From Metarhizium brunneum (Eukaryota; Ascomycota; Sordariomycetes; Hypocreales; Clavicipitaceae), in the NCBI RefSeq assembly GCF_013426205.1, contig NC_089423.1, positions 2,976,001 through 3,040,000 on the forward strand: a stretch of 64,000 nucleotides of DNA, read 5' to 3'. Under the pieces are notes generated by a model. It searched no databases and was not told the DNA's origin. It was given only the letters and a program-made list of their open reading frames with translations. Made by a program: the position numbers and the translations under genes. This document shows positions 24,454-48,207 of this stretch, piece by piece (within the stretch, counting starts at the first letter, position 1; each line of letters begins with the position of its first letter).

Positions 24454-27400
24454 TTACACTTCGGGAGAGTTTGTAATCTCCTCAAATGCCTGCAGGATAT
24501 CAAATCCCATCGCTACGAGTGGCTCAAACGCATCGTCCACAATCTGTATCTGTTAGAGAGCTATCGCAAATTTAATCAATGGCGAAAAGTACGCACCCAA
24601 CTCAAAACGGCCTTGGAGGCTCTGTGGCCCTTGCTTTGGCGAACACCCATGAGAGCCAAACCCTGCAGTACTAGTGTTGCCTGCGGCGTTGACGGCACGA
24701 TTGGGGCAATTATGCCACCAACATCCTCGCGATCAGAGAGCAGAGGTGGAATATATGTCACCAGAGGACTACCTTGTCGGCAGATTATGACTGTGCCAAT
24801 CAGATTGCCAGATGGATCCTTGGCTCTGACAATACCACATGTTTTATTCTCTGAGAGCGCATACGTATAGAGCTCAAGAACCTCTGGGTTAGCATTCGCA
24901 CGAACATGATGCAGTACACTTTCTGCGTTTTCCAGGCCATGAATCAAATCAAAGCTGATGTTGGCCCTCTGAATGCTTTGCAACAGTCCTTCAGGGGCGA
25001 CCCAATTTGGCAGATCGTGAATGATCATATTCGTCAAACGCCTAGGGAACTGTGTGTCCCATCCGCTGTTGCTGAACCACTCCTTGACGGTGTTTGCTTC
25101 AGGATCCAGAGGGATCCCAAGGAAAACTCCGGGAAATGACATTCCGACTTGGACCTTCTTGAGACCTCGCTGCTGACTGAGGCTCTTCAATGCTCGCCGA
25201 TGAAGAGATCGCCCAATAGAAACGTTTCGCTTGCTCGGATCGACCAGCAGAGCCCCAATAATACCGACGCCCGCAATGAAGTATGTAGCAACAAATCCAT
25301 AAAGAGCCCCCGTGCTGCTGTTCCTCACTACAAAATGACTCTCCTTGATGTTCGGTAGGTGTAGTTCCATGGAAGCGGCTCTTGTGGATTTGAGGAAATG
25401 AAGGTCAGGCGCACTAGCTCTGTGAACGGCTTTCAACAAATCCTCCAAGCCGGCATAGTCGCGAGCTCGGTCATATTCTTCGACGAGCCAGTGCTGTCGG
25501 GATTTGAGAACCTTTTTGCTCTTGCGAAGAGTCCCGGGCATGCTGCCAATGGGGGTAATCTCGCCAACGAGAACACGGACCAAAGCAGACATGGCATCTT
25601 CCGTAAAGTCAAAAGTGCAAATATACGTGCCAATCGATTTGTCCATAGCGAAGTCGTACGGGGAGCTCACAGCAACTACAATCAGCTGCTTCTTGTTTCC
25701 CCTGCTGCGGTGCATCGAACACATCATGTCCACGTGCTTTGTAAAACCTGCCTGGTACATGTTGCGGTTGGCATCGGCCGTGACGATAATGATGCAAGAC
25801 GCCCTAGCGATAAGGTTTTCATGAACTGGAATTGGAGTTAGGCACTGGCAATGCACCTGAAAAGAACTGCAAGGGGATGAAAATTTTCCTTACCCGGCCT
25901 TACACCATTTGCTGTATAACTGGTGTGAAGCAGTTTTTCATTGCGATACCTGGCGAGGTTTTTTCCAAACTCACGGAACACCCCTTCACCGCTCATTATG
26001 GCACTTCGTTCGCGGTCTTTATGTGCCCAGGAATCATGCTGTGTTGGGGCTTGCGACCAAGTCTTCTTAGACTCAAGCAAGCTCTTGGTCATAGCCGAGG
26101 CAGGTAAGGGCTTTACAAGAGGCGTAAGCAATAAAAGCTCTTCTCCGGGATGCATGGAGCTGGACAGAGGAAGCATCTTCTCTTTATCCCGAATAACGGT
26201 AATGGATTCATCATAAGCTCGGCGAGATAGCGACACGTGCGATGGGTGCAGCTGGGAGAGAAGTGAGATGCCTGGAGGATTGAGAGCCTTTGCCCAAGAA
26301 GTACAAGTCGACTTGAGATGTTGAACTCGTCTGATGGATGTGAAGATGCGATCTTTTGTGATGATGCCATTTTCGTAACCAAGCTTTAGACCCTTGATCG
26401 CTTCGAGCTGGACATCATAAGCACGGCATAGCAAAACAAGATCACAACCCGCTTCGACCGCCATGACCACACCGTTCTGTACGCCCAAATCATGACTGAG
26501 CGCCTCCATTTCCAGACATTCGGAGATGGCAACTCCTTTGAACCCCAGCTCGTTGCGGAGCAAATCGTCGACAACTTGGTCGGAGAGACATGCATGACCA
26601 ACGTTCATAGATGGGTTTGATATACCACATCCGCCAACAAACATGGCATCGAGCTTGCCAGTTGCAATCGCATTTCGAAATGGAACCAGAGCACTGAGGC
26701 TCAGCTCTTCCAATGTCTGGGTAATAACTGGAACAGCGGAATTGGAACCTTGAAAGTCTAAATTGCCATACGAAGGGAAATGCTTTCCTGCGGCAGCAAT
26801 ACCGGCGTCGCGAATACCATTCAATGCGGCAAGGCCATATTGTGAGGCTTCCTGGGGGTCGTCCCCGGTGGAACGAACACCGAGCGGCTGGTACCTCGCA
26901 TTGTTCAGAACATCCAAGACGGGACCAAGCATGAGATTGACACCGCAAGCTGAGATCTCGGAAGCCGTGGCCTTGTAGATTTCGTAGGCCAACTCGACGC
27001 GTCCAGTGGCGGCAATGCCCATGGCGCTTGGAAATTGGCAGACATAGTCTTCGTCAAAAAGACTGTTGACACCTCCATTTTCCTGGTCCACAGCGATGAG
27101 AAGTGGTTGAGGATGGCCGGCATTCTTGGCTATGGTCTGCAATTCCTGGACGAGCTTGGCAGTCTCTTGGGCAGCTAGTCCTTGGAGTTAGTACAGTTGG
27201 CGATGAAAATATAGCATATAGCTACACATGGGGGTAATAGATGTAGGGCACATCGCATGGCTGAGATGGGACGTGTTTTTTTCAAACCAGCAAGCACAAC
27301 AGGCTGGGTTTCCACAGCCAGCAACGGAATAAGAGAGACGACAAAGGGGTCCGAACGAACATTTCAAATTCTTAGCCGTGAGAATAATGGACCCAAGATG

Positions 27401-27690
27401 GTGATCTTCAATAAGACTTTTGATCTGAGGGGTAACTTCAGTGCCATCCCAGCCCATAATCAGCATCTGCCCAACAGCCCTGTGAAGCGTTAGCCACGGC
27501 AGCATTGAGAAATTGAAGCAGACATTGGGCCATAGTACCCAACAAAGGACAGGCTCTACTCCGTACACAGCACAGATATCTGATTAAAAAGAACATACCA
27601 GTCGAGGTTCTGCCACAGTGGGTCCAGGTCGCTCCCATCAGAGCTTGAGCTGGAGTTTGGCTTCTTGGGGTTGAGGTTGGCAGCAGCCAT
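24454..27690 (-). CDS. nag3: GH3 beta-N-acetylglucosaminidase fused to GNAT domains
   Basis: The product is predicted to release GlcNAc from chitin fragments or GlcNAc conjugates. Exons 27690-27599, 27479-27361, 27174-25894, 25825-24597 and 24549-24454 join to 938 aa. The GH3 part (about 30-480) has DWAVGQMLIMGWDG, AVDQENGGV (D100), NLMLGPVLDV, AGKHFPSYGN (K201-N208) and GVAISECLEMEAL (288-296). The C-terminal part (about 560-938) looks like two GNAT acetyltransferase halves: FVATYFIAGVGIIGALLVDP with RNVSIGRSLHRRA, then GNLIGTVIICRQG. This GH3-GNAT fusion is known in fungi (for example Rhizomucor miehei Nag). No signal peptide is visible, so it is probably intracellular. The position where the GH3 nucleophile Asp is expected reads Glu (E289). 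It is divergent from dac1 across 1,673 bp. Intron 1 contains a TACTCCGTAC palindrome (27557-27566). Confidence 0.9.
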
Positions 27691-29363
27691 GGTGAATGGG
27701 ACGGGGACGGGGACAGGGACGGCGACTGCGGCTTTGTTCACGTTGATACACTCATAGTAGCCGTCCGGCTTGCGGAACGATGGACAATTGATGACGGACA
27801 ATGGCAATTGGCAGTCGGCAGTCGGAAGCTGCAGGACAGCTCTGCGAAGCTCGACGATGTTGCAAACGGGCTGGCAAGGACAGGCGCGTGAGAACTAGCG
27901 GACAAGTGCTCGGCAGATCTGAGCGTGTTGGCGCAGTCTCAATCTACACTGGGGTTCAATGTTGGTTGGCCGAGATGTTCAATGTTGGTAAGCCGTCTCC
28001 AGCTCCATGTCGAGCCAGAAGTATCGATAGGTCGGGACGTGTTGGGAGGTCTGGGGTTGAATGGCCGGTTCAACGTCGGCCGCCCAACAGTCAGTCTGGG
28101 GAGAGTGATAACATTACAGGCCACATGCACATGCAGCCAGCAGCAGCGGCCCAGGCTACCCTGTACCATCCGTGTCGTCGAGTGATGGCCAATGTCGTCT
28201 GGGTGGCTTCAGTGGGACTCTGCCTCTCTCAAGTGGCTGGCATAGATTCTTCATCAAGCATCATGTTCCGGCCAGGCTTCCAGGATGCTTCGCGATTGAC
28301 GGCTTCTCCACTAGCATATTCGGAGCCTCAATCTGGGACGGGGGGCGACTCGCCGGCTTTCGGTTTCCACGCGACGCCGGCGTGGATCAACGAGACACAG
28401 GAGTGGCCAAGTTTTTTTAGTGTTTTTTTTGCCCTTGTTCTTAATTGGAGATGGACTGGGGAAAGAAGGAAGGAAGGGGGGCCATCTGGGATGTTGTCTT
28501 GCAGCCGTGACAAGCGGCAACGTGCAAAAGTCAACGTTACATGCATGTGGGCCAAGCCATGAATCGCTCGACGTCTTGGGATCTGCTTGCTGAGCAGTGA
28601 CAGCTACAGCGGGCCGCACCCCTCCATGCAGCCTGGTACCTAGGAAGATTCCATCAATTGATTGACAGTGCCATCGACTGCTTCTTAGTTCCGACTTGTG
28701 GTGCTTGCCGGCTGATACACTCTCAAGGTTTTTAGCCTCGATGCATGTATGGCACCGCTGATGGTAGATGGCGCTGCTGCAGCCGTTGCAGAGAAACAAA
28801 AGCTTTCAATGTTCCTCTTGTCCTTTCCCATCCCGGCATCTCCGCCCTCGCCGCTGCCAATGACTCCGCCTAGCAGCCAGCCTTGAGCCATCGCATGGCA
28901 CCGTGACAATGCTCATGCAAACTTGTCCCATAATAAGTGCGCTTGTAGCAGTGTTTCATGGCTTTGTCGTTACCGTCAGAGCCTACCGCCGCACCCTTCC
29001 TGGCCTCGTGCCCTGACCACTGGCACTGGGTGTGTCTCCATCGGAATCGGCGGGGCGCAACACTGAATATCTCGGACTAGTAACCATGAGGTGATGGCCG
29101 AACGGGTCAACGGACTCTTATAACTGTCATCGAGCTGTAAAGTAGAATCTGGATGGTAGTCACTTGACGACGCTCGGGGAGAGCATTCCATTCCGAAGCT
29201 CAACTGCCGTTCACTGTATCATGCCGATTCTGAACTTTGCTGCCCTTCAACTTTCTTCCCTCGATCCCGTCTTCTCCGTCCTTCCTTCCCTCGCTTGATC
29301 ACAACAATCCTAGGCCCAGATAGAACCATTTCACTTTTTACGCGCGCCCTCCTAGAACAAACC
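27691..29363. promoter_or_regulatory. Shared divergent promoter, nag3 / dac1
   Basis: The 1,673 bp between the two start codons must carry the promoters of both genes. It starts with a GGGACG-rich run (27698-27722) in the nag3 leader. A near-repeat CAATGTTGGTTGGCCG / CAATGTTGGTAAGCCG lies near 27,957 and 27,980. A plus-strand frame (27,801-28,562) crosses it but has no recognisable domain. No binding site can be assigned with certainty. Confidence 0.6.
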
Positions 29364-31065
29364 ATGCCCATCGCCCTATCTCCTCCGACCCGGCCCAAGA
29401 ACGGCTTGACCAAATTTACCAACTGCCGGCTGGTCAAAGGCGATGCGTTGGTTACCGAGGACCTTTGGGTCAGCTCAATAACGGGCAAGATCATCAACAG
29501 CCAGGCCACCTTCTTCGATGAGTTGAATCTTCCCGATAAGACCATCGATCTTGGTGGCCGTATTATTTCCCCCGGCATGATCGAGTGCCAGCTCAACGGA
29601 GCTTTCGGCTTCAACTTCTCCACGCTGCTCGATGACATGTCTCAATATGGCAAGAAGGTCAACGAAGTGAACAAGCTGCTCGTCCAGACCGGCGTTACAT
29701 CATACATCCCGACCATTACCAGTCAACGGCCAGAGCTATACCAAAAGGTGGGTTTTGGCTCATCCTGCATGTGCCTTTTGCGACCAGGGCGTAATTAAGT
29801 CGTCCCCTTGCGCGCTCGACACCAGAAAAAGAAAAGAAGAAACCCCGGAACTTAAACCCGAACTCACGTCGTTGGCCTGCAGTAAATATGCAAAAACACT
29901 TCAAGTAATTAAAAAAAAAGCCATGCACTGCTAACTGAACCCTTTTTGCCACAGGCCCTCCCCTTCCTTGGACCATCTGGAGCAAACAGAAATGCACACG
30001 AAGGTGCCGAATCACTCGGTGCTCACTGCGAAGGACCATTCCTGAATCCTACAAAGAATGGAGTCCACAATATCGACGTGCTCATAGAGGCACAATCATT
30101 CACTGATATTGAGGCTTGCTATGGCGCTGAGAACTTGCGGCCTCAGAGCGAGGGTGAACCGATCCCAATCAAGATGATTACCGCTGCCCCCGAGCGCGGG
30201 TCGATGATGAAACTCATCCCTGAGATTGCATCGCGAGGCATCATTTATTCTGTTGGCCACTCCGAGGCCACGTATGAGGAGGCGTCTGAGGCCGTGGGCC
30301 GTGGTGCGACCATGATCACCCATCTTTTCAACGCTATGCGGCCTCTTCACCATCGTAATCCCGGCATCTTTGGTGTTCTTGGCAAAGCCGAAAACCTGGC
30401 ACGTCCCTACTTTGGCATCATTTCTGACGGAATCCATCTTCACCCGACAACCATCAAGATCGCCTTCAATGCGCATCCTGACGGCTTCATCCTCGTCACC
30501 GACGCCATGCACCTTGTTGGCCTGCCCGACGGCGCCTACCCTTGGACCAACGGCGAACAGACGTGCAATATTATCAAGAAGGGATCCAAGCTGTTGCTGG
30601 AGAACTCGGATACCATTGCCGGAAGGTATGTTTCGAGAATGCCAGGATATTTGACTCGCCCCTTGTCGCCTTTCCCCTCATGTGGTGGTAATAGGGCGAT
30701 GGCCGTGTTCCTCCTACATGCCCCGCTCACACACATATGTACATGCATAAATGCTGCAATGCACTCGCGTAATAAGCTAACAATTTTGGCACAGCTCCAT
30801 CACGTTGCTTGAATGCGTCAATAACTTCCTGGAGTGGTCCGGCACGGGTATCCCTCAAGCTCTCAAGGCCGTGACCGCAACCCCCGCAGCCATGCTGGGC
30901 TTTCAGGGCATCAAGGGATCTCTGGAAGCCGGCGCCGATGCTGATCTCGTCATTTTTTCCGAAGAAGAATCCACGACAGGCTCTGGATCAAAACAGCTAG
31001 TCTTGGACGAAGTCTGGAAGTTTGGCGGTCTGCTGCACACGGCTAACCGCACCAAGGCTTTATGA
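29364..31065 (+). CDS. dac1: N-acetylglucosamine-6-phosphate deacetylase
   Basis: The enzyme hydrolyses GlcNAc-6-P to glucosamine-6-P and acetate, the second step of GlcNAc use, in the cytosol. Exons 29364-29747, 29955-30625 and 30795-31065 join to 441 aa (bacterial NagA is about 380). The metal and active-site motifs of the amidohydrolase fold are all present: HCEGPF (E154), VGHSEATYEEA (H230), ITHLFNAMRPLHHR (H251) and the catalytic Asp in LVTDAMHLVG (D311). The C-terminus has the usual return strand (LEAGADADLVIF). The start ATG sits in ACCATGCC, and in-frame codons upstream lack another ATG. It lies head to head with nag3 and the pair probably responds together to GlcNAc. Confidence 0.96.
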
Positions 31066-32320
31066 ATGAAAATAACGACATGAAAAGGACTGCATCAACT
31101 ACCAATCTTTTAAAGCGAGACATTTCTCTGAAACAGTAACGAGCATTATGATCCGCCACATGGCCGGCCCGGAACAGCTCCGCAGAGAAGCTGATCCAGT
31201 CACGTAGACTTTGGTTTTGGGGAATTCACAATTGTACATAGTAGGTTTCAGCGCAGGGTTCCTCCCGATTTATTCGAGAAGAGCCAGGCTGATGGAGGTC
31301 GGGGTGATAGGAGCATGGAATATACCGGAACAGATCCAAAGAGGATTTGTTGGCAGCGCAAGCGCAACCATGGATCCAAAATATAAATTGGCGTATTAGT
31401 TACGAGTGTATTGCATTTATACAATTTATATTCACTCATAATTTGGTAGTGAGTATGGATTACAGTTTGTTTAATTTCAATCCTCCGTGCTTTTCTTCTG
31501 CCAAGTCTGCACGACTTCTTGCAACGCTGCGGCGATCGGAGCGGATCTTAGCGAGTCTCACTTTTGACAATGTCTCAGAACCAAAGACTTCTAGAAGAAG
31601 AGGCTGTTCGAAAGTTGGGTTTACTTTGCTGTCTGCGTATGCTTGTACATGTACCTGCCGCTTTGGCCTGGCCTCATTCCTGGCTCCACCAGACATCACA
31701 GACCTTGGCATATTCCCGGCCGCGGATCTGCAGTTTGCGCAAACAGGCATTCGGGCTAGATTGTGGAATAGCTATTGGTTTCACCGGCCTACCCTTGGCC
31801 ATGTAACTGGCGATTTGCATATTGAGGCACTGGGCCTATGCAAACGGGCGTTGCTGCCGGCCGACATTGTAGATTATATCTGCGCAGGAGTGGAGGAGGC
31901 GTGCTATGTTAAATAGGCTGTACCAAACTTTGAACATTGGACAATGTTGCCGGACCCGTGACCTCCCGTCTTTACCAGTGGCAGTGGCATACTGAACCGT
32001 TGTGTCCGTGTCGCATTTTTGATAAGAAATTAAAGAAGCTGACACAAGGAGACAAAGATAATACATGTTTCTCCCTGCGCCGAATCACTGTGTGGAATTA
32101 CAGCATAGTCCGGGGTTACAAACGGAGGTCACTGGATGGACGGGGATGCTCTAGCATCACCACAATGGGTTGTCGGACGACTGGTTTTTTTCTGGTTGGA
32201 CTACTTTGGTTCCCGCCCGTCGCAACAGCACCAGACGTCCTGTGACCAAATTTAGCCATGTGTGAGCTGACTGTTCCTAGCTTGAGAAAGCGCCGCGCGT
32301 GGTTACAACTTACAAGTCAG

Positions 32321-32341
32321 GTACTCCGTAGTACGGAGTAC
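32321..32341. repeat. Head-to-head TACGGAGTA hairpin
   Basis: GTACTCCGTA and TACGGAGTAC are separated by a single G, so the whole 21-bp block is a palindrome around one central base. It is the tightest pair of the dispersed motif in the window. Confidence 0.95.
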
Positions 32342-32941
32342 CTAAGTAGAGAGTAATACAACTTTGGCGTTCTGCGTTGTAGTACTATTAGCTCAGCCCC
32401 ATGCTTCTTTCCCCAACATTGCGAGAACAGTCCACTCGGCTGCAAACCTACAACCGATATTGTAAGGGTGAGATGAGAGCAAGTAACATTCAAGACATTG
32501 CGGGGAAGACCAGAAAGAATGGGGTCCATCGAGGTTGGGGTGACGATCTTGGCTGGCTGGTGTCATTGTCTCATTGCCGTCTGGGGAGGGTGTCGAACCA
32601 AGACTGAACTCCGTTCATTAGAGCACCAAGGCTGTCATGGCTGTTCTACCACAACCCTTTCCGCAAGGTGAATGCCCACAAGTGCGTTTCCGTCACCCTC
32701 ATTTGCTGGGCAAGCTGCCCCCGTCGGGGCCACTACAGCCTTGCGCAGGACACTTGAACAGTTGTAGTCAAGTGTCGTTCGGTTCCCCAGCTTTGAGCAA
32801 ACCCTCATCAGGGCGTTAGGAACGTGACAGGTTGTGTGTAACTTTGACTTGCTATGTTTAGGATTCGTGATGCGGCTGCTTGACCTCGGACGGCTGTTTT
32901 GAAAATCATGTCTTTTGGCGTGGCCGCAGAATCCCCAATAC

Positions 32942-32966
32942 CCTCTCCTCTCCTCTCCTCTCCTCT
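32942..32966. repeat. CCTCT tandem repeat, 5 copies
   Basis: Five perfect CCTCT units lie between dac1 and ron1. Confidence 0.95.
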
Positions 32967-34010
32967 GTTCGCAGAGACAACATATCTTTGGCTCTGGCCG
33001 GTGTCGTTGGCCACCAACGCGCCCTTGCAATCTGGCTCTTGCCGGGCCGTGGCAGGTGATTGAGTTCTCTTGGGTCTACTCCGTACAGAGGTAACTATTG
33101 TAGCGGCAAACCTGCAGCTTCGACTCGCAGCCAAAGGTGACCACCCTAGTGATCCCGCCGGACATGATCCTTTATCATGACCAATTTGGCCATTTTGAAG
33201 AAAAGACCCTGCCAACCCCAGTCAGTTCCATGGAGCTGTAGTTGACGCCACCGTTACCCTCATTAGAACCCATCCGCTCGACCGGCCCATTGTGGCGGCA
33301 GGTGCACGAGAGCACCCAGACAGGGAAACACAGGATAGTGAACGCCATTCGGCGCGAATGCAGAAGAGTAGCAAGCGAGCTGCACGAGAGTATGGGGAAG
33401 GCGGGAACATGCACGGAGTAGCCTGCGCGCGTGCCGCCTCATTCATAGTGCAGACAGAACTAGGAGGAGCCCGGACAGACTGGACCGGCCAGCCAAGAAA
33501 AATTCGCAGTCAAGACCAGAAACCAGTCGAGCATTTGAACAATGCACATGGAAGGGCAGGCACGGAGCTCTGGAGCGCACCTGCCTCTGACTCTGAGCAG
33601 GCCCCCCCAGGGCGTCTGCTCAGGTCTGGTGCTCAATTGTCCTTCAAGTCCGTTGGCCTGGTCAAGTGGTTTCGGTTTCGGCTGCACTGTGGCCGCTCAA
33701 ATGCCCCGTGCCTGCTTGCTGGGCCGGCCAAGTCACTCGAACCAACATTCATTGCCGAATGCCGAATCTTGAATAGACAACTGTCAACAATGAGTCGCCT
33801 TCAGCACTTTTTATATTAATCTAGCAATCAAGACCATGACCAAAACGTCTCAGGCAGCTGGCCCAGTAGTCCCCACCCTCTGACCCAGCCACAGGAGAAT
33901 TCCAGGCTCCATCCAGGTCGGTTATTGAACTGCTTTCAAGCATTCGGGCGCTGTTGGTGGCTCGCCGGCCCCCCACAATTGCACCGCACACAACGGAGTA
34001 GGCAGCAAAT

Positions 34011-34045
34011 GGCAGCTGGCAGTTGGCAGCTGGCAACTGGCAACT
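34011..34045. repeat. Five 7-bp GGCARYT repeats upstream of ron1
   Basis: The units are GGCAGCT, GGCAGTT, GGCAGCT, GGCAACT and GGCAACT, end to end with no gap. They lie about 540 bp before the ron1 start and at the edge of the ATG-free leader. Phased short repeats like this could be protein sites or plain slippage products. Confidence 0.85.
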
Positions 34046-34584: not shown

Positions 34585-36360
34585 ATGGCTACGTTCAACT
34601 CTATGCCGGCCATGTCAGCCGCTGCGCCAAACGAGGCAATGGGCTTGAATCACCCTGCACCAGGTCAGCCCATGACAATGGAGCATTTTGATCAAGACTT
34701 TAATTTTGACGAGGCTGTCCTGTAAGCTGCTCCTTTCTTGCTGGAGACGACCTTTATCCAGAAAATGCAGTAATGTGAATTGCTACTGATGTTGTCGTAG
34801 GGATGGTGCTCCCTTACCTACCCTCCCCTTCACGCCGGCGTACGATTTTGACAATTTTACCACAACTTTTGAAGACCCATTCGCCTATTCCAGTCGGGCA
34901 TTCGAGCCCACCCCAAATCAAGATGCCCTCAACGAGGAATCATCGCCACAAGAGCTGGACAATAAGTTGCTGGGCTTTTCAGACCCAATTATGAATGCCA
35001 CAGTTGTCGACAAAACTGGCAAACTTGCGGAGGTGAATATGAGCGCCGAATTATACGGCATGTTCTTCGTTGCAGAGGACGTGTTCGGTGGGGACAACTC
35101 AGGACGTCCTCTTGAGCTGACTTGCTATCGCCGCAATCTATGGCAATGCTCTGGGCAGATAACGCTACCGAAGAATCTCTCACATCTCATGGACGAGCGA
35201 GGTCGCCAATTTTCAATTGATGAACTGTCGGCATCAATTACAGCAGTAGAATCGATTGAAGGAAAATCCACAGAAATCATTTCCATTCCCTGGAAGAGTT
35301 CAAGTTCTCAAGCGCCCGAGGAGACCAAGGTTGCGGCTGCGCCGCCTCAAATACCCCTGGATTTGAGCACGGCTCAGGAGGTTGATGCCGTTCGAGTTAC
35401 CCTTCCTGTCTCTTGGAAGCGTTTACAGTTCAAGCACGCAACGGCCAACAATGGACGGCGGAAGGGGCTTCAGCAGCATTACGTAGTCCAAATCAATCTT
35501 GTGGCTAAATCCAAGTCCAACGACATGATGAAAATCGCCGAGATTCAGTCAGGGCCCGTTATTGTTCGAGGGCGTAGTCCGCGCAACTTTGACAGCAGAA
35601 AAGATGTGCCTCTCACTGGGGAAAAGAGATTGGAGAAAAAAAATACAGCGAGTTCTGATAATACTGCTTTAAAAATAGAGCGGGAAAATATCCAAGCCAC
35701 AATGCAGAGATTCCAACCCTTGGGTAATGTAGCGGTATGTTCGAAATACATCAACAGCCCCGAGCGAATTGTTGACAAAATCAAAGCTGATAATTCCACA
35801 GACCCCAGCCGAGTGGTCAGCAAATCCACAGCATGTGTCTCATCCGAACAGCCAAAGTCCTCATCCAGCCAAGAGAATGGCCGTATCGCCCACCGTTGCT
35901 CGACCACCCGTGCCCTCCTGGTCTGCAGACGGAAAGAGCATGACAACTGGCCAACCACATCGAGGCTCGCTGAGTCGACAAAACACGGCCGTGCCTATCA
36001 ATCTCTCTCTGTCCGAGGATGAGAAGAGCCCCAATCGGTCCAGTGCAGAGCTGCAAAGTCCTCAGATGGGCAAGTCCCATCCCGTTTCAGGGCAGAACGC
36101 TGGCAATAGCCCTGTCGATGATCCAGATCCTCTTTATGAATACTTCCCTCTAACACTAGATGACTGGTATGTCTCATTATTTGCCTGGATTTACCTGGCT
36201 CGCACATTATATCCCCGACATGCTAACAGTTGGACTCGTTAGGATGCCACCGATCGATGCGGTCTACCGACCGCATGTGGTCCATCACACTATTGTGCCT
36301 CCCGAGATCAAAGCTCAGCAGTCACAAAGTAAGGCAAAACGGTATTTTTCGGCCGAATAG
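34585..36360 (+). CDS. ron1: Ndt80-like transcription factor (RON1/XprG/VIB-1 type)
   Basis: The product is a nuclear DNA-binding regulator of the Ndt80/PhoG family. Its T. reesei relative RON1 activates the GlcNAc genes; XprG and VIB-1 control starvation responses. Exons 34585-34721, 34801-35734, 35802-36166 and 36243-36360 join to 517 aa. The Ndt80 domain (about 105-320) has LGFSDPIMNATVVDKTGKLA, AELYGMFFVAEDVF, PLELTCYRRNLWQCSGQITL (150-169), VTLPVSWKRLQFKHATANNG and QHYVVQINLVAK. The conserved tail LDDWMPPIDAVYRPHVVHH is rebuilt across the last intron, and the protein ends AKRYFSAE. The start has a strong context (GCCATGG), but another ATG begins 5 nt upstream in a different frame. Its place inside the cluster fits a pathway-specific role. 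Confidence 0.93.
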
Positions 36361-37182: not shown

Positions 37183-38448
37183 ATGAGCGGCCGCGATAGT
37201 GCCGCGTCGGTCGATGAGTGGAGTGACCTGGACGAAGAGGAGGCGGGTCTGCGAGATGCCTTTGTGGCTTCGGTGCGAGAACTATACGATGCGGGAACAC
37301 CGTTCTTCACCAAGGAGATGATTCAACTTGCGCAAGATCAGGTTGACGAGATTGCGGAGGGCTCAGTATCAACAGAAAAAGTAGAGCACCTTGGTTTTGA
37401 TGGTAAAATGCATTCGCAATCGTTACCGCCTTCGTATTTTTTTGCGAAAATAGATGATGGAATGTAAGAGCAAGTCGCCTAGCTTGGTGCCTTAGTTTAG
37501 GCAACCTCATATCAACGAGGCCTTCGTGCTGATACTTGAATATAGCCTCGTCCCCATTGTTGGGTACAAGTCGTTCGAGGCATTAACCATATTGCCGCCA
37601 CATCGTGTAGGCGACAACTTGTTTGTTTCCGTCAGCGTCTCTGGCTCATACAGGTTGATAAATAAACCGCCGGATATTTTGCAAGATGATGCGAGGTGTG
37701 CATTCGACCAGTATTTCGACCTATGGCAACAAGGCAAGGATTGGGCAGACCTGAAGGAGCGGATTCGGCCGCATTTTTCAACGCTGCCAATGACCATTGA
37801 CAAGATTATCGGGTTTGGGCTCGGCGTTCTGACGATGGAGGCCGGTCGTAACGATGACGATGGATGGGTCAAGCGCTGTAGCGAACAGCACGCCTTGATG
37901 CTCACGTTGGCCAAGATGCTTCAAGAACACACTGGCAACAGTGTCAAGTGTTTTGCCCAAGATCCCGCATATTCCAATACTTGCAAGGACATTCTCGGCA
38001 AGAGAGACGTTGACATTGTCCACGGAGACACGGGGTTTCTTTTGGTGGACGAGAACTCCATTGTATTGTCGTTTAGTCCCAATGTCCCCGTTCGACAGGT
38101 GATTGCGGATCTGGCTCGTCCAGCAATGATGGTATGCAATATGATTTCCAGGCCCACGACAAGGGAGTGGCGGCGACGGGGAGGTGTTTCCATCAGGTAC
38201 GGTACTTGCCTTTTGTTTCAATCTCATTGTCTTGTCCATTCTTACCTGTCATGTTGACCGGCGATGCTAACGTGGGCATTTCCGATAGCCCTTTTACCAC
38301 AGATCCTGTTTCACCGCGAGTCATGGCCATGAAAGAAGAATACATCGAGTTACCCATCAACACTGTCAAGTCCCTCGGAAATTCCGCAGTTTACATACGG
38401 AATACAAAGACCTCAAAACCGCCCCAAGGTCAAAGCACCTTTTCGTAG
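37183..38448 (+). CDS. SRR1-like domain protein
   Basis: The product has the fold named for Arabidopsis SRR1; fungal members are mostly uncharacterised, so no function is proposed. Exons 37183-37463, 37546-38196 and 38289-38448 join to 363 aa. The N-terminus is acidic (EWSDLDEEEAG) with RELYDAGTPFFTKEMI, common in fungal SRR1-like proteins. The SRR1 core has MTIDKIIGFGLGVL, QHALMLTLAKML, a DPAYSNTCKDILGKRDVDIV segment and FSPNVPVRQVIADLARPAMM. The last exon gives TTDPVSPRVMAMKEEY. For intron 1, an 82-nt intron using AATATAG (branch CTGAT) was preferred over a 37-nt alternative that would add 14 residues. The gene lies between ron1 and dam1, inside the GlcNAc cluster. Confidence 0.75.
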
Positions 38449-39195
38449 CGATGCATCAGGCGTTTCTATATAGGAGGGGCCGCTAGTTGTCTCCTCGGCT
38501 GCGAAAGGGGGGGCAGACAAGCATTATGCAGATTGGGTTTCATATATCATCATAATTGTGCCTTGAAAGGCAATAATTCAGAGAAGTGTTAAATGAACCA
38601 TATATGTATGTCATACCAGTGATTACACTAATGAGACAATGTATCCTCATCACAAAGCTTCAGCCCAGGTAATAACAGCTGATGTATGATCGAATGTACC
38701 AGTGCCAACTACAAAACATCAGAGCGACATGTCTCGAACCGCGCGTAAACGTGATATCGTACAACAAGTGCGCTTCCACGTCGGCCACAGCCCAATAGTA
38801 CACACCATTTCCCCCTTGTCTCTCGTCATAGACACCATCGGTGTGCGCCGACATGGCCAGACGGCAACGCATAAACGTGCCGCCCCTTGTTCTCCATCTC
38901 CCGCCTCCAAAGCCCAAGTAACGTCACAGGAAGACGGAAACACGCCGGGAGCCATTCCGAGCAAGACGTCCGTTTTTCCGTCAGAGTTTCCGTCATGGAC
39001 TCATGGCACAAATAATTGAGACGTCAAGCCATAGCCGCAACCTAATACGGAGCAGAGGGGATCCACAGGCCTGTCAAACAAGCCAGGACCACATGCAGTT
39101 GAGAGCACTCAATGTCGAGCTATCGGGCCGCGTGCCTGTCAGTTCTCAGCATTTCTCTGTCTTGGACCCCGGTTTCCGCGCCAGCTACTCCGTGG

Positions 39196-39232
39196 TCCTC
39201 ACCTCCTCACCTCCTCACCTCACATCCTCACC
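39196..39232. repeat. TCCTCACC tandem repeat
   Basis: Three perfect 8-bp TCCTCACC units are followed by a fourth after a 5-bp interruption. Confidence 0.9.
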
Positions 39233-39778
39233 GGGTCAGAAATACACTGCTGCCTTGACGCGGTCCACTGTGGATAGGCTCCTCCCGTCCATTTCGACCT
39301 TGGTTCTACCGCGTCTCTGCCCAGCGCTCAGCGTACTAGTAGTACCGAGTATTGCGTTTATACCAGCTCGCGGCCCTATCCTGGAGGCAAAGGGCCCAGG
39401 CGCCTGTCCGATGTCGGGACGACGTCGGCTCAGACTTCGGATATGCAAGCGATGGAGCACAAGGACCGGGGAAAGAGAGGGGCGGCAATCGAAGCGACGG
39501 TCATGCAACGAGCCAAGTGATCATGATATCACAAGCATGTCCCTTGTCACGGACCTCGTGCGCATCAAAGGGCTCGTGGGAGGCCGAACACTTGCATCCG
39601 CCGCGGGCTGTTTTAGTCCCAGTAACCTTGTCGGCCGTGAGTTGCTGACGACTTTGGCATATATGTATTTGTTTTATATCGAACGAGCGTTGATTGGAGA
39701 TGACAGGGTTACAAGGTTACATTAATCGTGTCGATTTCATGCAGGGCCCAGGGATGGATCACCTCCCGCATGCCTTTG

Positions 39779-39993
39779 AATGTGCGCAGGTCCAATTGAT
39801 GTGTTTGACCTACTTTTTCATGATACGTAAAGATGCTCTTTTAGCAGGAAAATCAACTAATATATTTTTATATACTTACATGTCTTGAAAATTTTGAAGT
39901 ACTTTTATTATTATATAGTTTCTTAGTAAGTATATAAGTACTTATTCTTAGCTAGAACCCTGGTCTGTTACAGAAATTAGACCTGCGCACATT
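39779..39993. mobile_element. MITE-like element with 19-bp inverted ends
   Basis: AATGTGCGCAGGTCCAATT at 39779-39797 is repeated as its inverse at 39975-39993 with one mismatch out of 19. The 177 bp between them are strongly AT-rich, unlike the flanks, and contain no open frame. This is the structure of a short non-autonomous DNA transposon. Flanks read TTTG before and AAAG after, so no clear target-site duplication is visible; TTGAA against TTAAA is the nearest candidate if the ends are 2 bp shorter. The superfamily cannot be named. Confidence 0.55.
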
Positions 39994-40421
39994 AAAGGGA
40001 TTGGGGATTGTACATGCATTCATGGGCGCACAAACTTTTAAAGTTCAAGCATAAAATTGGGGTTAATAATGCATTTTATTCCTGAAATCTTTTCAAGTCG
40101 TGCGTGGTGCGTACCGTTGCAACCAAACTGATGGTATCTAATGTTCTCATAAGGGCTGGTTAAGCCAGCAAGCAGTCTTGACTCTGTGCTTTAAACGAAA
40201 GACAGGAGTGACCCCTGCGTCTGAAAGATGGACAGGCCCAAGGTGTAAAATGAGTCTTGGAGCCGAAAGAAAAAAGAACAAAAACACAAGAGAGAATTTC
40301 AATACACAAAAATATCACATCATGGGTCTCTAGGTCGAGGAACAGAAATCCAAGCCCTCTTCGTTCTTCAAAACGATGTAATCATCAACTAAACTCCAGC
40401 GCCGTTTTGGTGTGCCGCTTT

Positions 40422-41720
40422 TCAAGCACTGATTGCGTTTTGTGGCAGAGCGGCCTGCTGCTGCTCAGGATTGGGCGTTAGCCGCTTGTTCAAGGCAGGC
40501 TCGGGAATTCGAGAAGCCATTCGATCCGGAACCAACTCGGGAGAGACGGATCGAACGGGGTACTCTGTCGCAGGCGTAGCCCGGAGAAGCCGCGAGGTGG
40601 TAGGCTGGGGAGCGAGGATAGTAGGAGAGTCGACTTCCTTGACTCGGGTCGTGGGAACGACTCCGTTCCCAGTGCGGACTTTGGAGGGCAGGATCTGCTC
40701 GAACCCAGCCTCCTTGGCGACCTTTTCGATGCTCTTGAAGTACTGCAGAGAATGTTAGGTTTCGGACTCTTCTGGCCTCCCACGAGGGCTGCTTTGTTGG
40801 GATGGGTTACCTTGACGGTTTTGACCTGGAGCTCGAGAGTGGCGTCCTCATCGACAACAATCATGGGGTGAGGGTGCAGCTGTAAGCTGGACAGAGTCCA
40901 CATGTGGTTGACGCCCTGCTCGATGCATCTCTGCAAAGCAAGAGACTTTCGCTGGCCGAGAATAATGACGACGACCTCGCGGGCCTCGAGAACAGTCTGG
41001 ACACCAACGGTCAGGGCCATGCGAGGAACCTTGTTGATGTCATTGCCGAAAAATCGCGAGTTGGCGAGAATGGTGTCGTATGCCAAGGTCTTGACCCGGG
41101 TTCTACTGGCCAAGCTCGACCCGGGCTCGTTGAAAGCGACGTGGCCGTCCTCGCCAATGCCGGCAAGGAAGAGGTCGATCCCGCCGACGGCCTTGATGGC
41201 ATCTTCGTAGGCGACGCACTCGGCCTCGAGGTTCTCCGCATTGCCGTTTAAGATGTGCACGTTGGAGGGGTGGACATTGACGTGGGAGAAGAAATTCTTC
41301 CACATGAAGGAGTGGTAGGATTCGGCGTGGTCCCGGGGAATGCCCACGTACTCATCCATGTTGAAAGTGACGACATGCTCGAAGGAGATCTGTGTTGGAC
41401 ATGTTAGTCACGATAGCTTCGCAGCCAACGAACAAGCCGTGACTCTCTCTCAAATAATTACAAAAAAAAAAAAATAGTGCAAGCTGGCTTCATCGCACAG
41501 CTCAATCCATGCTTCTTCTTCTTCTTCTTCTTCTTCTTACCTCGCCAGCCTTGAATTTCTCAACAAGAATCTTGTAGACGCCCAGAGGGCTAGAGCCCGT
41601 AGGCAGACCCAGGACGAATGGGTTTTCCGCAGTAGGGTTGAAGGCCTTGATACGGTCGACAATGTAGTTTGCAACGTAGGTGCTCGCTGAAGTAGCGTCG
41701 TCGCGAATAATCAGTCTCAT
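40422..41720 (-). CDS. dam1: Glucosamine-6-phosphate deaminase
   Basis: The enzyme converts glucosamine-6-P to fructose-6-P and ammonia, the last step of GlcNAc use. Exons 41720-41541, 41389-40811 and 40742-40422 join to 359 aa. The active-site residues fall at the same numbers as in E. coli NagB: D72 in NMDEYVG, and D141, H143 and E148 in GIGEDGHVAFNEPGS. The phosphate loop LGLPTGSSPLGVY is at about 37-49. Compared with the 266-aa bacterial enzyme there is an added C-terminal tail of about 90 residues, rich in Pro, Thr, Ser and Gln, with no known domain. Intron 1 starts inside a CTT/AAG microsatellite (41512-41538) and also holds a 13-bp A run. It converges on the SRR1-like gene and is divergent from hxk3. 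Confidence 0.96.
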
Positions 41721-44700
41721 CTTGACGAGAGAGGTCCAAAGGCGGTGTGTGAAGCTTTGGGTTGGATGGACTTGGAATGGGAAGCGGGAGCTGTGTGAAG
41801 CTGTGTGTAAGTGATGTCACAAACTGCCAGCTTAAGAATGGCGGAGTGGTGAATCGGAGTAGATGAATAGGATAGGAAAAGGATGTCTAAGAAGTATGTA
41901 GTAATAAACGAAAAAAAAAGAAGAAGAAAAAATAGAGGACAGAGAGAAGAGCAAGGTTCAGCAAAGTCGGTTAAGATCGGTGGGAGGTGTAAGAGGTGGA
42001 AGATGATCATGGGCAGCGGACAACCTTAGAATGGTGGGCCGGCCGATGGATGCTTGGGCGCATTGCAACAGTACATCACTCACAAAGGCGACATGAAGCG
42101 AGGGCAATGGAGGCGTGTGTCATGGATTGGATGTCAGGATGTGCGGTCTTACTGCTCCGGGCAATAGCGACTCGACACCGATGATTCACTCTCAACTATG
42201 CACTCGATGCTCCGTTCTCTGTTCTCCGTTCTCCATTCTCCATGGAAACCCAGAGCTCGCGTCCAAATCCAGTTCCGCCAGTGCCAGTGCCAGTGCCAGT
42301 GCCTTTCTTCTTAGCTTCAATGTTCCTCCAGTCCGTCACTTGCCCCTACAAGCTCTCAGTGCTACCCATACCCCTCTGGCCAGATTGTCACAATGGCGGC
42401 AGCCGAGAATGTATGTGGGACGATGATGGCTTCTGTCATGGTTTGCTACTGTCGTGAGCCATGGCTGGGGCATATGGAGCCACGGGGCCGAAAAGGCCGG
42501 ACCTAGACCCGACGGCGATTCCCAAGGGCATTTGCCAGGTGCCAGTGTGTCAGTTGCATGCAATGATGTCGTGGTGGAGCTGAGTGGCTTCCGAGAGACG
42601 ATGGATGGAACGTCACTGCATGCTCTAGCGGGTAATTGTTGCAGCCCAGTCTGATGTGCACGTGCAAGCCTTCGACTCCTGGTCTCGTTCTGTGACTGTG
42701 GGGAGCACTGCCGTCTTGCTTCTCTCCAAGTTGCCAGTCTCTCCCCATATTCTCCCGTCTCCAGATCCTCTTCCTCAGCCGCCCATTACAATCAGTACAC
42801 GCAGGTGCTGACTGTCCAACACAGCAAATGCTGTGCTGCAGCCGTCTTGGGGGCCGTCCTTTGGCCAATGATCCTCCCACAATCCATGCTTCATACTTCG
42901 CAGTGACTGAATAAGCCATGTCTTCTGGCTGTCTGGGGCACCGGTTGCTCCACTGGCAATCGCCGGATTAGTTCCATCATGACCGTGTGGCTCGCTGCCC
43001 CAAGAATACTCACTGCTCAAGACGGTCTTCACTGGAGTGCGGAGGAAACAACCACATGACCAAGTTGGGTCCTGCGGTTGGAGCTCCCAATTTCGAGGCT
43101 TGAAACGCAGGTCGTGAAGCCGCTAATCCGGACTGCGCTTGTGCTAGGCATGGTAGATCTTTTGTTGACCAATCCAAGGATGATATCGAGACGAGGCTGT
43201 TGCAGCCCATCATAGAGGGCGCCAGTGGTCCTATCTTGACAATATCATCTATCCATCAATCCACCTCCTATTCTCAATTGTTGGAGGTCGCCGACAGGCT
43301 TGTTGCTCTTCAGGTTTCCATCATGTCTCATGTTGGATTTTCGGTACCAAGAATATGTGCAATGGACCCTTAATGCAGCATCTAGGTATTGCACCATCCT
43401 CTCATAAAATGGTTCGGCATTGAGGCTCAATACTCCGCCTCCATTCACGACGCCTTCGAGTCTCACTGCCCCACCGTCGTCGAAAGGACATTGCATTGGG
43501 TCTCCGCGGCCTATGTCGAAGCAACATGACAATATCTGACGCGGATGTTGAAATGCAACGAGAGAATTTTCAACCCAAAGTAATTTGATGGGTCTTTTTC
43601 TGCAGTCATGCCAGTGGTTCCAGCTGAAACCGTGCCTGGCAGGTTAAATTATCAGTAATGTGTTATGCATATTTGACGGACGGCAATCGAGGGCGATGGA
43701 CAGATTACATTTGACACAGGCCGCGGACGGGTCGCCAAAGTAACCCATCGATAACATAGAAAGCGGTGGTTCGATTATTCCAAGGATTCAAGCTGATGAC
43801 AGGTCCATGCAGGTGAGATGGCTCCGATTTATGAATCCACAAACGAATACAACAAACATTCGCGCCAAGTTCCAGAAATCCCGGTGCTAACTACGCCTCG
43901 GTGAACAGGGATATCGGGATGAAGCATAGCATCGTTTTGGCTCTGGTGCGGTGGGTGGGATGATTGATAATAATACAGCCTTCTAATCGGTCTGCGATGG
44001 TGAACCAAAGACCAAGCATAATCTGCAGGCTCTCGATGTTGGCAATGCATACAGCAAACCCCACCAAACACTCCCCCACGCTGGGAGAAACAGGCCAATA
44101 TCGATCATGCCGGACTTTTTGTGTCCCCCACGTTGCCAGATGGTAATCCCTGTCATACAGAGGCTAAGGATGGATGGATTTGACAACCGTAGATCTTGGG
44201 TATCCTGAACCTAATACGAAGTTTGTTAGTGCAACATCTCAGTTCATTCCGCAGACAACAAAAATGCAAGGCACATTTTCAATTGCTTGTAGGAATGAAA
44301 CCTTTACAATTTCAGGCGCTTCTGTATCGAGGTGAACAGGGTTGACGTTGGGTGACCACATTGCAAAGCTACCAACTATTCATTACACAAGAGACCGACA
44401 ATTGGCCCATCTAGCGAACAAAATATACTGTGGCGGAGCGGAGGGCCTGCTAAATTTGGCACAAATGCATTTGTTGTCGTATCGTGAGCCACAGTGTTGG
44501 TCAAATTGCCAGGATGTTTTGTGCAGTTGCAGAGTAAAAATATCCAGCACCATGGTCTCCAACCAGTCAATGACAAGCTGGTAACCGATCATGAATCCCA
44601 ATCAGGAAAGAGCTCAATCCTGCCAGCGTGCTGCTGACACTCTGGTTAGTGCGTAGCAAGCACCCGACCTGTCGCTCCTTCTTCCTCGTGATGATGCATG

Positions 44701-46466
44701 CCAAAAGCCTACACGCACCTAAGGCATCAATTTCAATGGAGAACATCACGAACCGCACATCCCCAGACCAAGTTGACGACTACAACTAGTGCGATTACTT
44801 AACAAAATTTCCTCACTGTGGCTCCTCCGCATTTTCCGGAACGATATATTTATTCGCCAACAAAGCAACGGCACCCTAGTTCCACTTTGCCGCGCGGACA
44901 GGCGGATACTGGTTGTATGGCCAATGTCCTCGGCGTGCCTTGTGCCTTGCGGCCAGGGTCGAACCAACGGAAACTTCTAAACCATGCCAATCACCAGCGT
45001 GAATGCCACGATGCGCAGGCAAGGTGCAGCCTATAAACTGTCGCGAGCGATGGTGGCTGCCAATCCCAGACGGTTGGGAATGCGCGCCGTCGTGCCGCCC
45101 CTGGTATGCCAGCGCCACAGGCCATGACAGTTTTGAAGAACAACCCGACGATGGCCAATTCGGATGTTTGACTGACACTTGACTAGGCTGATGAGCAGAG
45201 TTTTGCCTCAAAGTGGCATACTACTACCACCACTTACCGCGGACTCGCCCACACCTCACATCCGCCATGCCGAAGCCCCAAAGTACCCACGCCACCTTGG
45301 CATCGGCACACCCACCGCAACGTTACAGCCCCAGCTTTTTTCTTAAATCCTCTCTCCAGACGTTATGCAGCCCCCGGTTGACGAGGCGTGGCTCATAACC
45401 AAGTCTATGTATGCATGTATAGTGGAGGACTCACTCAAGGCGAAAACATCCAGTCTGCAAACGAGACATTCGACATAGTCCACCACTCCGCGGTTGTAGC
45501 ACTGGCCCCGAGAGTTCATTGCCGATGAGACCTTCCGCAAGACGTCCGCCTGTGGTCCACATACCCCGGGCGTTCTATTGCGCGGTTGTGTGCATCATCT
45601 CGCCCGCACCCCCGTCTCTGCAATCCTTTGCCATTGGCTCCGCCCGACCTTCTCCCCATCAACCTTTCATCTTGAGGTTGCTCCCCTGTGTCCGACGAGG
45701 GTGAGTGAGAGAAGTGGCTCAAGTCAATTTTCGAAGCACAGCCAGGCACTAACACCACTCGCTCCCAAGCGGCGGCAGAAAACGGGAGACTGAAAACGCA
45801 ACCGTGGACCATCTATGCTATTGTCCACTGACCACTGACCATTCTGCGACGCCGGCCAACCTGGCTGCGGCTCTCTGTAACATCCAACTTTGTTTACCGT
45901 TGCGAGTGGTTGCCTACGACGTTTTTGTTGGCGTTCCGAATCCGAGTTGTATACGGACACGAACACCTGTCTCTCCCCTTCCACACTCTACAAAATTAAG
46001 TTTGCCCCAGATTGCATGTAAACCTGGCCAGGTTTCATCAAGTTGTGTTGTCCATGGCCAGGTGTCCTTGTTGACCCCCCAGATTCCCATATTTGACGTC
46101 CCTTTTTGATCGGCCCGTCCGGTGGTGGTTGGTCTCGTCTCATCTTGGATGCATCTCTTTGTTTTCGTTTAGGGTTTCTGTTCCTCATTGTATCCATTGC
46201 TGGCACTCTCAAGACTTTACCTCGACGGCACGTCAAACTTTCACCCTAGCACGGCTTGCTACGTTCATCTCTGCCCCTACACCATCGCTTAGCACATTGG
46301 GCCCGGTTGATCTGGTTGATCTCACCTTGAATCTGAGTTTGCTTGGTTGGTTCAACTTAAAATAGGTGCAACATTGCAACCCTCATTTGTCCTAAACTCA
46401 AAACATTTATCTTTGAACATTTTCCCCCTCGTCTCAACTTTGGCATCTTGCGTTCGAGCCAATGTT
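41721..46466. other. Long divergent intergenic region, dam1 / hxk3
   Basis: These 4.7 kb separate the start codons of dam1 and hxk3. They contain GTTCTCC-type repeats (42212-42240) and a CCAGTG repeat (42277-42303). No frame shows the many hydrophobic segments expected for the GlcNAc transporter that belongs to this pathway, or any other recognisable domain. Confidence 0.6.
42277..42303. repeat. CCAGTG tandem repeat, 4 copies
   Basis: Four 6-bp CCAGTG units lie in the dam1-hxk3 gap. Confidence 0.9.
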
Positions 46467-48207
46467 ATGCCCAGCATCATTCTCACGATGACGAACCTTC
46501 GAAAGGCATTCATTGCCGCCATTGTAAAGAGCTTGCTTCGAGGCAAGTCTCTAATACAAGCCTTACTCTCCTTCTGGGTCAACCCTGGCATAGCCGAGGG
46601 TGGCAAAGGGAACTCAACAAAAACGCTACAAGATTTTCTCAAAGATGCCGAGGCTGCGCTCCTCGGTCCTGTTAGTGGCAATGGTCTCCAGGAGCTTTCC
46701 GCAGGCTTAAAGAAGCAATTTGTTGAACGCTTGCAAATAGATGAACAATGCATGTTGCCTTCTTATAGCCATCAGCTGCCGTTGGGCAGCGAATGTGGAC
46801 AGTACCTGGCTTTGGATGTTGGTGGTTCGACTCTGAGAGTCGCTGTGGTGGAATTGCGAGGTCGTCGGGTGGATGCTGACAAGCAGAGTGAAATCATCAG
46901 CATGCACAACTACCGGATTGGCAAGGATGTCAAGGATCTAGAGGGAATGGACTTTTTCAACTGGATGGGCCAGAAGATTGCCGAGACGCTTGCCGAGAGT
47001 GGTCAACATGAGAATTCTGAGGCGAAGCCTCTTCCTATTTCTTGTGCTTGGAGCTTCCCGATTGAGTAAGTATTCACCACCTGCACACACTTTCTAGTAT
47101 TGCCGTTTTTACTTATCGCATTAAAGACAAACTTCCATGGGGAGTGGCAAGCTCCTCCCAATGGGTAAAGCATTCTTGGCAGACCGAGGCTTGTTGGGTG
47201 AAGATCTTGCTGGAATTATCAAGCAGGCTTGCAAGCAGTCTGGTCTTCACGTTGAACTGCGAGCCCTCTTAAACGACTCTAGTGCTTGCCTGTTGTCACG
47301 AGCCTACTCTTACACGTCTACTCGATTTGGTCTTATTCTGGGCACGGGTGTCAACTTGGCGGCGTACATGCCCGTCCAGAGTGTCGGCATGAAGAAGTTT
47401 GGAGTACGACCCAAGGGTTGGTATGAGGAGGCTAACCACGTCATTGTTAATACGGAACTAGGAATGTTTGGCCACAACATCTTGCCGCTGACAAGATGGG
47501 ATCATGCGTTAACCAAGCAGCATCCTCGCCCCGATTTCCAACCCCTCGAGCATCTTGTTAGCGGCATGTACCTTGGCGAGATTGTCAGACTGGCACTTCT
47601 TGAAGCTATTGAAACCACTGGGCTACTTGGTGGTGTTGTGCCTCATTCTTTGAGGACTGGTTACTCCCTAGGCACGGACACGATTTCTATGATTGAAAGG
47701 TACGGCAACACTTTTGTCTTTGGGTCCGACTGTCAACTAACTAACAATTCAAATAGCGACACCTCCCCAAACCTCGAGGAGGCCATAAAGACCTTTTCGG
47801 ATCGACACCCATCATCATATACACCCACTAGCTCCGATCTTATTGCTATCAAAGCCCTTTCATCATTTGTTTCTATTCGCTCCAGCGCTCTTGTCGCTAC
47901 TTGTGTCTACACGCTATGGGACCTGCGTCTGGATTTTGAGCAACAATATGTCGATACTTTGCTCGAGTCGTCCCCAGAGCGTAAGCGTGTTGAGGATGAT
48001 ATGAAACTGGAGAGCACTACGGTTGCGTTCAACGGTAGTGTGATCGAAAATTATCCTGGATACCTCGCAAACTGTCAACGTTATTTGGATGAGTTGATCG
48101 AGAGCAAATGCTCACCTGAACCACGAAGTATTCGTCTCATTGCGGCTAAGGAGAGCTCATTGTTGGGGGCTGCCGTTGCATTGGCATGCGTTGAGCGAGG
48201 TGATTGA
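46467..48207 (+). CDS. hxk3: Hexokinase-family protein, probable GlcNAc kinase
   Basis: By position in the cluster this should phosphorylate GlcNAc to GlcNAc-6-P. Exons 46467-47065, 47127-47699 and 47757-48207 join to 540 aa. The hexokinase motifs are present but altered. The phosphate-1 loop reads LALDVGGSTLR (114-124), where GGTN is usual. The sugar segment reads SFPIEQTSMGSGKLLPMGKA, where a WTKG motif is usual. The catalytic Asp is D250 in LLNDSSA, phosphate-2 is LILGTGVN (269-276), and sugar contacts N308 and E310 lie in VNTELGMFG. Such changes fit altered sugar preference, as for the T. reesei HXK3 and yeast-type GlcNAc kinases. Intron 2 is 57 nt, a multiple of three, and has no stop codon. 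Met8 (46488) is an alternative start. Confidence 0.87.

Follow-up and report, generated by a model that had tools for sequence, protein, structure and literature searches.

The N-acetylglucosamine (GlcNAc) genes within a 64,000-nucleotide stretch of Metarhizium brunneum (the window; G000:C2:2976001-3040000 in a genome of 37.77 Mb and 7 contigs) can with good confidence be regarded as a Metarhizium-type copy of a conserved GlcNAc cluster, in which a catalytically dead GH3-GNAT protein is the likely intracellular sensor NGS1 working with the transcription factor RON1. The locus is a real, conserved fungal GlcNAc-use cluster and ordinary in kind. Its genes are located on mixed strands at 24454-48207, namely ngs1 (-; nag3 in an earlier note on this DNA), dac1 (+), ron1 (+), dam1 (-) and hxk3 (+). 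This kind of cluster is already known; what is new is that Metarhizium nag3 is reinterpreted as NGS1 and that an extra gene with an SRR1 domain is present. The best protein matches come from Metarhizium and point to a species of the M. anisopliae complex.

Loss of catalytic residues in the GH3-GNAT protein

The exon open reading frames (ORFs) of ngs1 matched the Pfam families GH3 (6.9e-52) and GNAT (PF00583, Acetyltransf_1; 2.7e-4), and two of them aligned with RmNag of Rhizomucor miehei (4zm6; E=4.2e-59 and 2e-19) in both the GH3 and the GNAT part. The protein is 98% identical to a protein cluster named after M. acridum. The motif of active GH3 enzymes, K-H-F/I-P-G-H/L-G-x4-D-S/T-H together with a nucleophile Asp, is absent from it, the sequence reading KHFPSYGNLDFQGSN and ISECLEM at positions where RmNag has KHFPGHGDTA-TDSH and ITDCLEM. 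Accordingly, the catalytic D-S-H triad is replaced by Gly213-Ser214-Asn215 and the nucleophile Asp by Glu289, whereas RmNag, which shares the GH3 plus GNAT architecture, keeps the triad as well as the nucleophile.

Residues were counted in the best 120 of the 1038 homologues passing the threshold, to which all following counts on this protein refer. Gly, Ser and Glu occupied the lost catalytic positions in 120 of 120 proteins, while the third triad residue varied (N 61, S 57, A 1, T 1). Gly-Ser and Glu likewise occur in each of the proteins P0026-P0028, which are named after M. acridum, M. album and M. rileyi. GlcNAc-binding positions were kept, with K201, H202 and R171 present in all 120 and D100 in 118 (two gaps); D100 and R171 are taken by us to be such positions on the basis of NagZ structures. 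In motif A of the GNAT domain, the acetyl-CoA positions V692 and G702 were kept in 119 homologues (one gap), and V692, D693 and G702 correspond by spacing to V685, D686 and G695 of TrNGS1 from Trichoderma reesei.

The NAG3 protein of T. reesei has the same G-S-N and Glu and was renamed as the sensor NGS1 (Ullah and others, PMC12176254). In Candida albicans, CaNgs1 was reported to bind GlcNAc, with the K-H pair among the binding residues, to acetylate promoter histones and to be recruited by Rep1 (Su and others, PMC5063960). Because the G-S-N and Glu residues agree with T. reesei, the K-H and acetyl-CoA positions are kept and CaNgs1 provides a precedent, the GH3-GNAT protein of the window is, judged by its sequence, likely the intracellular GlcNAc sensor NGS1. 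The release of GlcNAc, which the earlier note had ascribed to nag3, is not supported, since the catalytic Asp, the His and the nucleophile Asp are gone and the T. reesei protein was renamed on the basis of the same residues (PMC12176254).

The least probable of the alternatives weighed here is that nag3 encodes a working beta-N-acetylglucosaminidase (NAGase), which would free GlcNAc intracellularly from chitobiose. Among solved structures, its closest relative 4zm6 was deposited as an N-acetyl-beta-D-glucosaminidase, and the M. anisopliae protein MaNAG3 (KFG78085) was described as a putative NAGase with conserved GH3 motif and few substitutions among orthologues (Oliveira 2018, PMC6415606), a statement repeated in a 2026 review, which credits MaNAG3 with catalytic residues (PMC12954445). 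Nevertheless, D-S-H and ITDCLEM in 4zm6 face G-S-N and ISECLEM here, and Gly-Ser and Glu are common to all homologues counted. Moreover, deletion of nag3 in T. reesei impairs growth on the monomer, which is unexplained by a releasing function (PMC4950302). Release could be accomplished by another gene, because a motif-intact GH3 of the same kind exists elsewhere in the genome (G000:C2:6887593; KHFPGHGDTAVDSH and ITDCMEM). A further GH3 gene, of a type other than ngs1, was observed at G000:C2:3973131-3974075 (KHFPGLGAASHDANTD and ITDALEAG).

It is also unlikely that the GNAT domain of NGS1 acetylates glucosamine and that the protein is a salvage enzyme and not a chromatin regulator. The GNAT activity of RmNag on glucosamine in vitro (PMC12176254) and the similarity to 4zm6 extending through the GNAT part would fit such a role; still, CaNgs1 controls transcription and the acetylation of promoter histones (PMC5063960), and two-thirds of about 2100 GlcNAc-responsive genes in T. 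reesei need NGS1 and RON1 (PMC12176254).

Cluster organization

Gene families, order and strand were determined together with the lost and kept residues and the signs of linkage in relatives. Spliced models were derived from ORFs, splice signals and the proteins of relatives. Position 24454 is the end of the ngs1 stop codon and 48207 that of hxk3, and the translations of all six spliced models are free of internal stops. The features are as follows.

24454-27690, minus strand: ngs1 (earlier nag3), GH3 and GNAT fusion, 936 amino acids (Pfam GH3 and Acetyltransf_1, 4zm6 match); exons of the spliced model 27690-27599, 27479-27361, 27174-25894, 25825-24597 and 24543-24454
27691-29363, no strand: intergenic region separating the divergent genes ngs1 and dac1, 1673 bases (from the gene models; codon score well below that of genes)
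29364-31065, plus strand: dac1, GlcNAc-6-phosphate deacetylase, 441 amino acids (7nut match); exons 29364-29747, 29955-30625 and 30795-31065
34585-36360, plus strand: ron1, NDT80-domain transcription factor, 517 amino acids (Pfam PF05224, 1.8e-40); exons of the spliced model 34585-34721, 34801-35734, 35802-36166 and 36243-36360
37183-38448, plus strand: SRR1-domain gene, 363 amino acids (PF07985, 2.2e-11); exons 37183-37463, 37546-38196 and 38289-38448
40422-41720, minus strand: dam1, glucosamine-6-phosphate deaminase, 359 amino acids (1ne7 match); exons 41720-41541, 41389-40811 and 40742-40422
41721-46487, no strand: intergenic region separating the divergent genes dam1 and hxk3, 4767 bases (no Pfam or Rfam match; codon score well below that of genes)
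46488-48207, plus strand: hxk3, GlcNAc-kinase-type hexokinase, 533 amino acids (Pfam matches); exons 46488-47065, 47127-47699 and 47757-48207

The homologues of hxk3, dac1 and dam1 are linked within 24454-48207, and both the NDT80-family gene ron1 and the GH3 gene are linked to them. The Pfam matches on the exon ORFs of ngs1, ron1, dam1 and hxk3 and the match of spliced dac1 to 7nut, taken together, lie far beyond chance. With the match to the solved structure 1ne7, they bear out the earlier note in that five genes are present on mixed strands, with the pathway identities and the NDT80-type ron1 proposed there. Two divergent pairs, ngs1/dac1 and dam1/hxk3, enclose ron1 and the SRR1-domain gene, the latter being a sixth gene absent from the earlier list. 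Successive coding regions from ngs1 to hxk3 are spaced by 1673, 3519, 822, 1973 and 4767 bases; the last value, measured between the start codons, agrees with the gap of about 4.7 kb noticed before.

Compared by gene set, the cluster is the same as that of T. reesei with nag3/ngs1, dac1, ron1, dam1 and hxk3 (PMC4950302) except for ngt1, so that the cluster type claimed by the earlier note holds with regard to gene membership. The likeness extends to the Gly-Ser-Asn and Glu residues of the GH3-GNAT protein, which were reported for TrNGS1 too; the SRR1-domain gene inside the window cluster marks a difference. The transporter gene ngt1 is not part of the cluster in the window, the genome not having been searched for it; in M. 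anisopliae, NGT1 is KFG79873 (PMC12954445) and, judged by this accession number, is probably unlinked to the cluster. The CaNgs1-Rep1 system of C. albicans resembles the present one in a GH3 part without catalytic residues, the K-H pair, the GNAT motif A positions and an NDT80-family partner, and a similar mechanism may apply here. It differs in that Rep1, and not the GH3 gene, accompanies the catabolic genes there (PMC4950302).

Linkage in relatives

Linkage was assessed in nine species whose ngs1 and hxk3 carry locus tags that can be compared. The two genes are four tags apart in five of them (Drechmeria coniospora, Akanthomyces lecanii, Ophiocordyceps australis, Fusarium nematophilum and Stylonectria norvegica), a spacing that would accommodate exactly dac1, ron1 and dam1, and five tags apart in two (Claviceps maximensis and Cylindrodendrum hubeiense). 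The two genes are thus four or five tags apart in seven of the nine species. As judged by locus tags, the description of the cluster in the earlier note as much looser than a compact one finds no support, and the long gap lacks a coding signal.

Among 32 organisms common to the lists of ngs1 and hxk3 homologues, the two genes were located on contigs of the same size in 24, a hand tally that is weak evidence as contigs are often long. The 24 include Stachybotrys chartarum with two strain prefixes, and three of the eight differing cases visibly come from different strains. Five of the same-sized contigs are shorter than 100 kb, namely those of A. lecanii (25,114 bases, apparently one contig with both genes), Tolypocladium capitatum (44,637), C. 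hubeiense (49,852), O. australis (71,205) and S. norvegica (74,497). Adjacency is further backed by annotations that fuse two genes, namely RXT2 with GH3 in Metarhizium album and Claviceps citrina and GH3 with NDT80 in Cytospora schulzeri. The RXT2 fusions support it since in the window, too, an RXT2-type gene (21667-22734) adjoins ngs1. In Aspergillus nidulans, the cluster is split by an inversion (PMC4950302). Clustering of GlcNAc-use genes is conserved in many related fungi, though not universal.

Catabolic enzymes

For dac1, no Pfam match was obtained with its two exon ORFs. The spliced protein matched the solved GlcNAc-6-phosphate deacetylase 7nut (E=2.4e-80) over residues 16-408, which is nearly the full length, and retains the segments EGPF, GHS, THLFNAM and VTDA, presumably the metal and catalytic segments. 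The exon ORFs of dam1 matched Glucosamine_iso (1.5e-16), and DAM1 matched the solved glucosamine-6-phosphate deaminase 1ne7 (E=1.1e-113; residues 1-260). Its C-terminus continues for about 100 residues (40422-40721) past the part aligning with solved deaminases, and the first intron of dam1 features nine perfect CTT (GAA) units (41512-41538) adjoining the donor site.

The exon ORFs of hxk3 matched Hexokinase_1 (1.9e-24) and Hexokinase_2 (1.5e-53). HXK3 is 64% identical to the T. reesei protein P0163, as opposed to about 26-32%, depending on the stretch, to the three other hexokinase loci of the genome. Identity is 95% to M. humberi and 94% to M. robertsii, and the two closest Metarhizium matches comprise 533 amino acids. 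A first model of 559 amino acids contained a 57-base intron and seven surplus start residues and was replaced by one of 533 after comparison; the homologue listing was made with the 559-residue version as query.

Regulation

The exon ORFs of ron1 matched NDT80 (PF05224) at the value listed above, and ron1 was the best of three NDT80 loci of the genome against the single fused GH3-NDT80 model of Cytospora (57% over 347 amino acids). In T. reesei, single deletion of nag3, hxk3, dac1, dam1, ron1 or ngt1 impaired growth on GlcNAc in each case, and induction of the other five genes was lost without ron1 (PMC4950302). The catabolic genes of this fungus are also NGS1-dependent (PMC12176254). By analogy with other fungi, we infer that RON1 may control the Metarhizium cluster as well.

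Sites of the CRE1 type, searched as SYGGRG, had raw densities of 5.4 and 6.3 per kb in the two divergent regions, somewhat above the 3.8 per kb of the window. The window contains three copies of the 9-mer CACTCTCAA, each of them within one of these two regions, compared with an expectation of 0.62; three of 100 shuffles reached three copies. As a shared promoter word it was rejected, as it had been chosen post hoc and the number of shared 9-mers was equalled or exceeded in five of 60 shuffled promoter sets. In the genome there are 312 copies versus 198 of the reversed control word; the word is absent from the GH20 and intact-GH3 loci (L010, L025-L027) and present in two of 25 GH18 loci (L033, L042).

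The presence of a gene in the dam1-hxk3 gap was likewise dismissed, since a six-frame translation of 41751-46402, in which Gly was put in place of stops, gave no Pfam match. The whole window lacked Rfam matches, and no tRNA was found for the gap. The best codon score there was 0.137 compared with 0.284-0.436 in the six genes, a score trained on these cluster genes and some flanking ORFs and therefore favouring them. The gap is apparently non-coding upstream DNA shared by the divergent genes dam1 and hxk3.

Evidence to the contrary and the case of MaNAG3

Several observations weigh against the overall interpretation. The first Gly of GNAT motif A is a Ser in the window protein (S 112, A 5, N 2 and one gap among the homologues), and the Pfam GNAT score barely exceeds its cut-off (21.6 versus 20.7 bits). 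Sites of the Ndt80 type, searched as CRCAAAW, were not enriched, with none in the ngs1/dac1 region, none in the dac1-ron1 region and three in the dam1/hxk3 region (0.63 per kb, equal to the window average of 0.61 per kb). In two of the nine species compared, Hirsutella minnesotensis and Epichloe bromicola, the contigs carrying ngs1 and hxk3 differ in size, and the pathway genes of Aspergillus fumigatus A1163 are non-clustered (PMC12584764). To these are added the published assignment of MaNAG3 and its repetition in the review mentioned above, and the finding that 1% chitin induced the other three NAGase genes of M. anisopliae and not MaNAG3 (PMC6415606).

With 0.25% GlcNAc, MaNAG3 alone was induced among the four NAGase genes (PMC6415606), and two paragraphs before its statement on MaNAG3 the review describes T. 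reesei NAG3 as lacking catalytic residues (PMC12954445). For M. anisopliae, this review gives the accessions KFG78087 for Ron1 and KFG78094 for Sre1. In the window, the order is ngs1, dac1, ron1, SRR1-domain gene, dam1, hxk3, BRCT, ESCRT-II, nitrite-reductase-type and SREBP-type gene. Provided that accession numbers follow gene order, KFG78085, KFG78087 and KFG78094 match ngs1, ron1 and the SREBP-type gene. Window ngs1 was equated with KFG78085 by accession order (two below Ron1, consistent with the window), intron number (four in both) and family; the GlcNAc induction observed in M. anisopliae is a further likeness. They differ in that MaNAG3 was published as a NAGase of 909 amino acids with a GH3 motif, whereas the window model comprises 936 amino acids without catalytic residues. 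Since the window sequence suggests that MaNAG3 belongs to the sensor family, its GlcNAc induction should be read as regulation and not as release. In the available Metarhizium literature on NGS1, on Ron1 with GlcNAc, or on dac1/dam1, no account of the cluster was found, although one may be contained in Fig. 2A of PMC4950302; in PMC7341153, NGS1 denotes a synthetase and is unrelated.

Proposed mechanism

The functions of the Metarhizium genes are presumably those known from T. reesei and Candida, from which sensing, recruitment, acetylation and induction are transferred here. GlcNAc would enter the cell by a transporter encoded outside the cluster and be bound in the dead GH3 pocket of NGS1, which is probably held at promoters by RON1. 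The GNAT domain could then acetylate promoter histones, upon which ngs1/dac1 and dam1/hxk3 would be induced from their own divergent upstream regions. HXK3, DAC1 and DAM1 together would convert GlcNAc to fructose-6-phosphate, acetate and ammonium. Chitin-rich insects are the habitat of Metarhizium, and food, cell wall and development are linked by GlcNAc sensing. For tests of RON1 and NGS1 in a fungus living on insects, exact gene models are now available, as are two divergent regions that are candidate promoters.

The SRR1-domain gene

Over its full length, the SRR1-domain protein shares 95% identity with a protein cluster named after M. anisopliae; identity to M. majus is 92%. Two SRR1 loci were found in the genome, the second at G000:C5:364005. 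Weaker relatives were found in Purpureocillium, Tolypocladium and Aspergillus, and the SRR1 literature held nothing relevant by title. Most likely, the gene is a passenger of the cluster, which it would have joined in the lineage from which Metarhizium and Conoideocrella derive.

A role as functional sixth cluster member in Metarhizium and close relatives is improbable. It would be in line with the location between ron1 and dam1, with a close relative in five named Metarhizium species among the matches listed, with an M. album SRR1 gene on a contig of the same size as that of ngs1 and hxk3, and with SRR1 and hxk3 contigs of equal size in M. rileyi and Conoideocrella (only 31,136 bases in the latter). 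In contrast, the SRR1 protein is faster-evolving, with identities of 64% to M. album compared with 93% for ngs1 and 84% for hxk3, and of 56% to M. rileyi compared with 92% and 81%. Furthermore, the locus tags of five of the nine comparable species allow just three genes between ngs1 and hxk3. Even less probable is that Metarhizium and close relatives recruited it into the cluster to serve NGS1-RON1 sensing as an additional regulator or accessory.

Neighbouring genes

Near the cluster, a nitrite-reductase-type gene with Pyr_redox_2, NIR_SIR and Rieske domains is located at 54335-57849 (approximate ends). In-frame stops in the ORFs of this and the SREBP-type gene were rejected as real, since ordinary introns explain them (judged by eye). 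The SREBP-type gene (58738-62091, minus strand) features HLH plus DUF2014 and is likely the homologue of M. anisopliae Sre1 (KFG78094).

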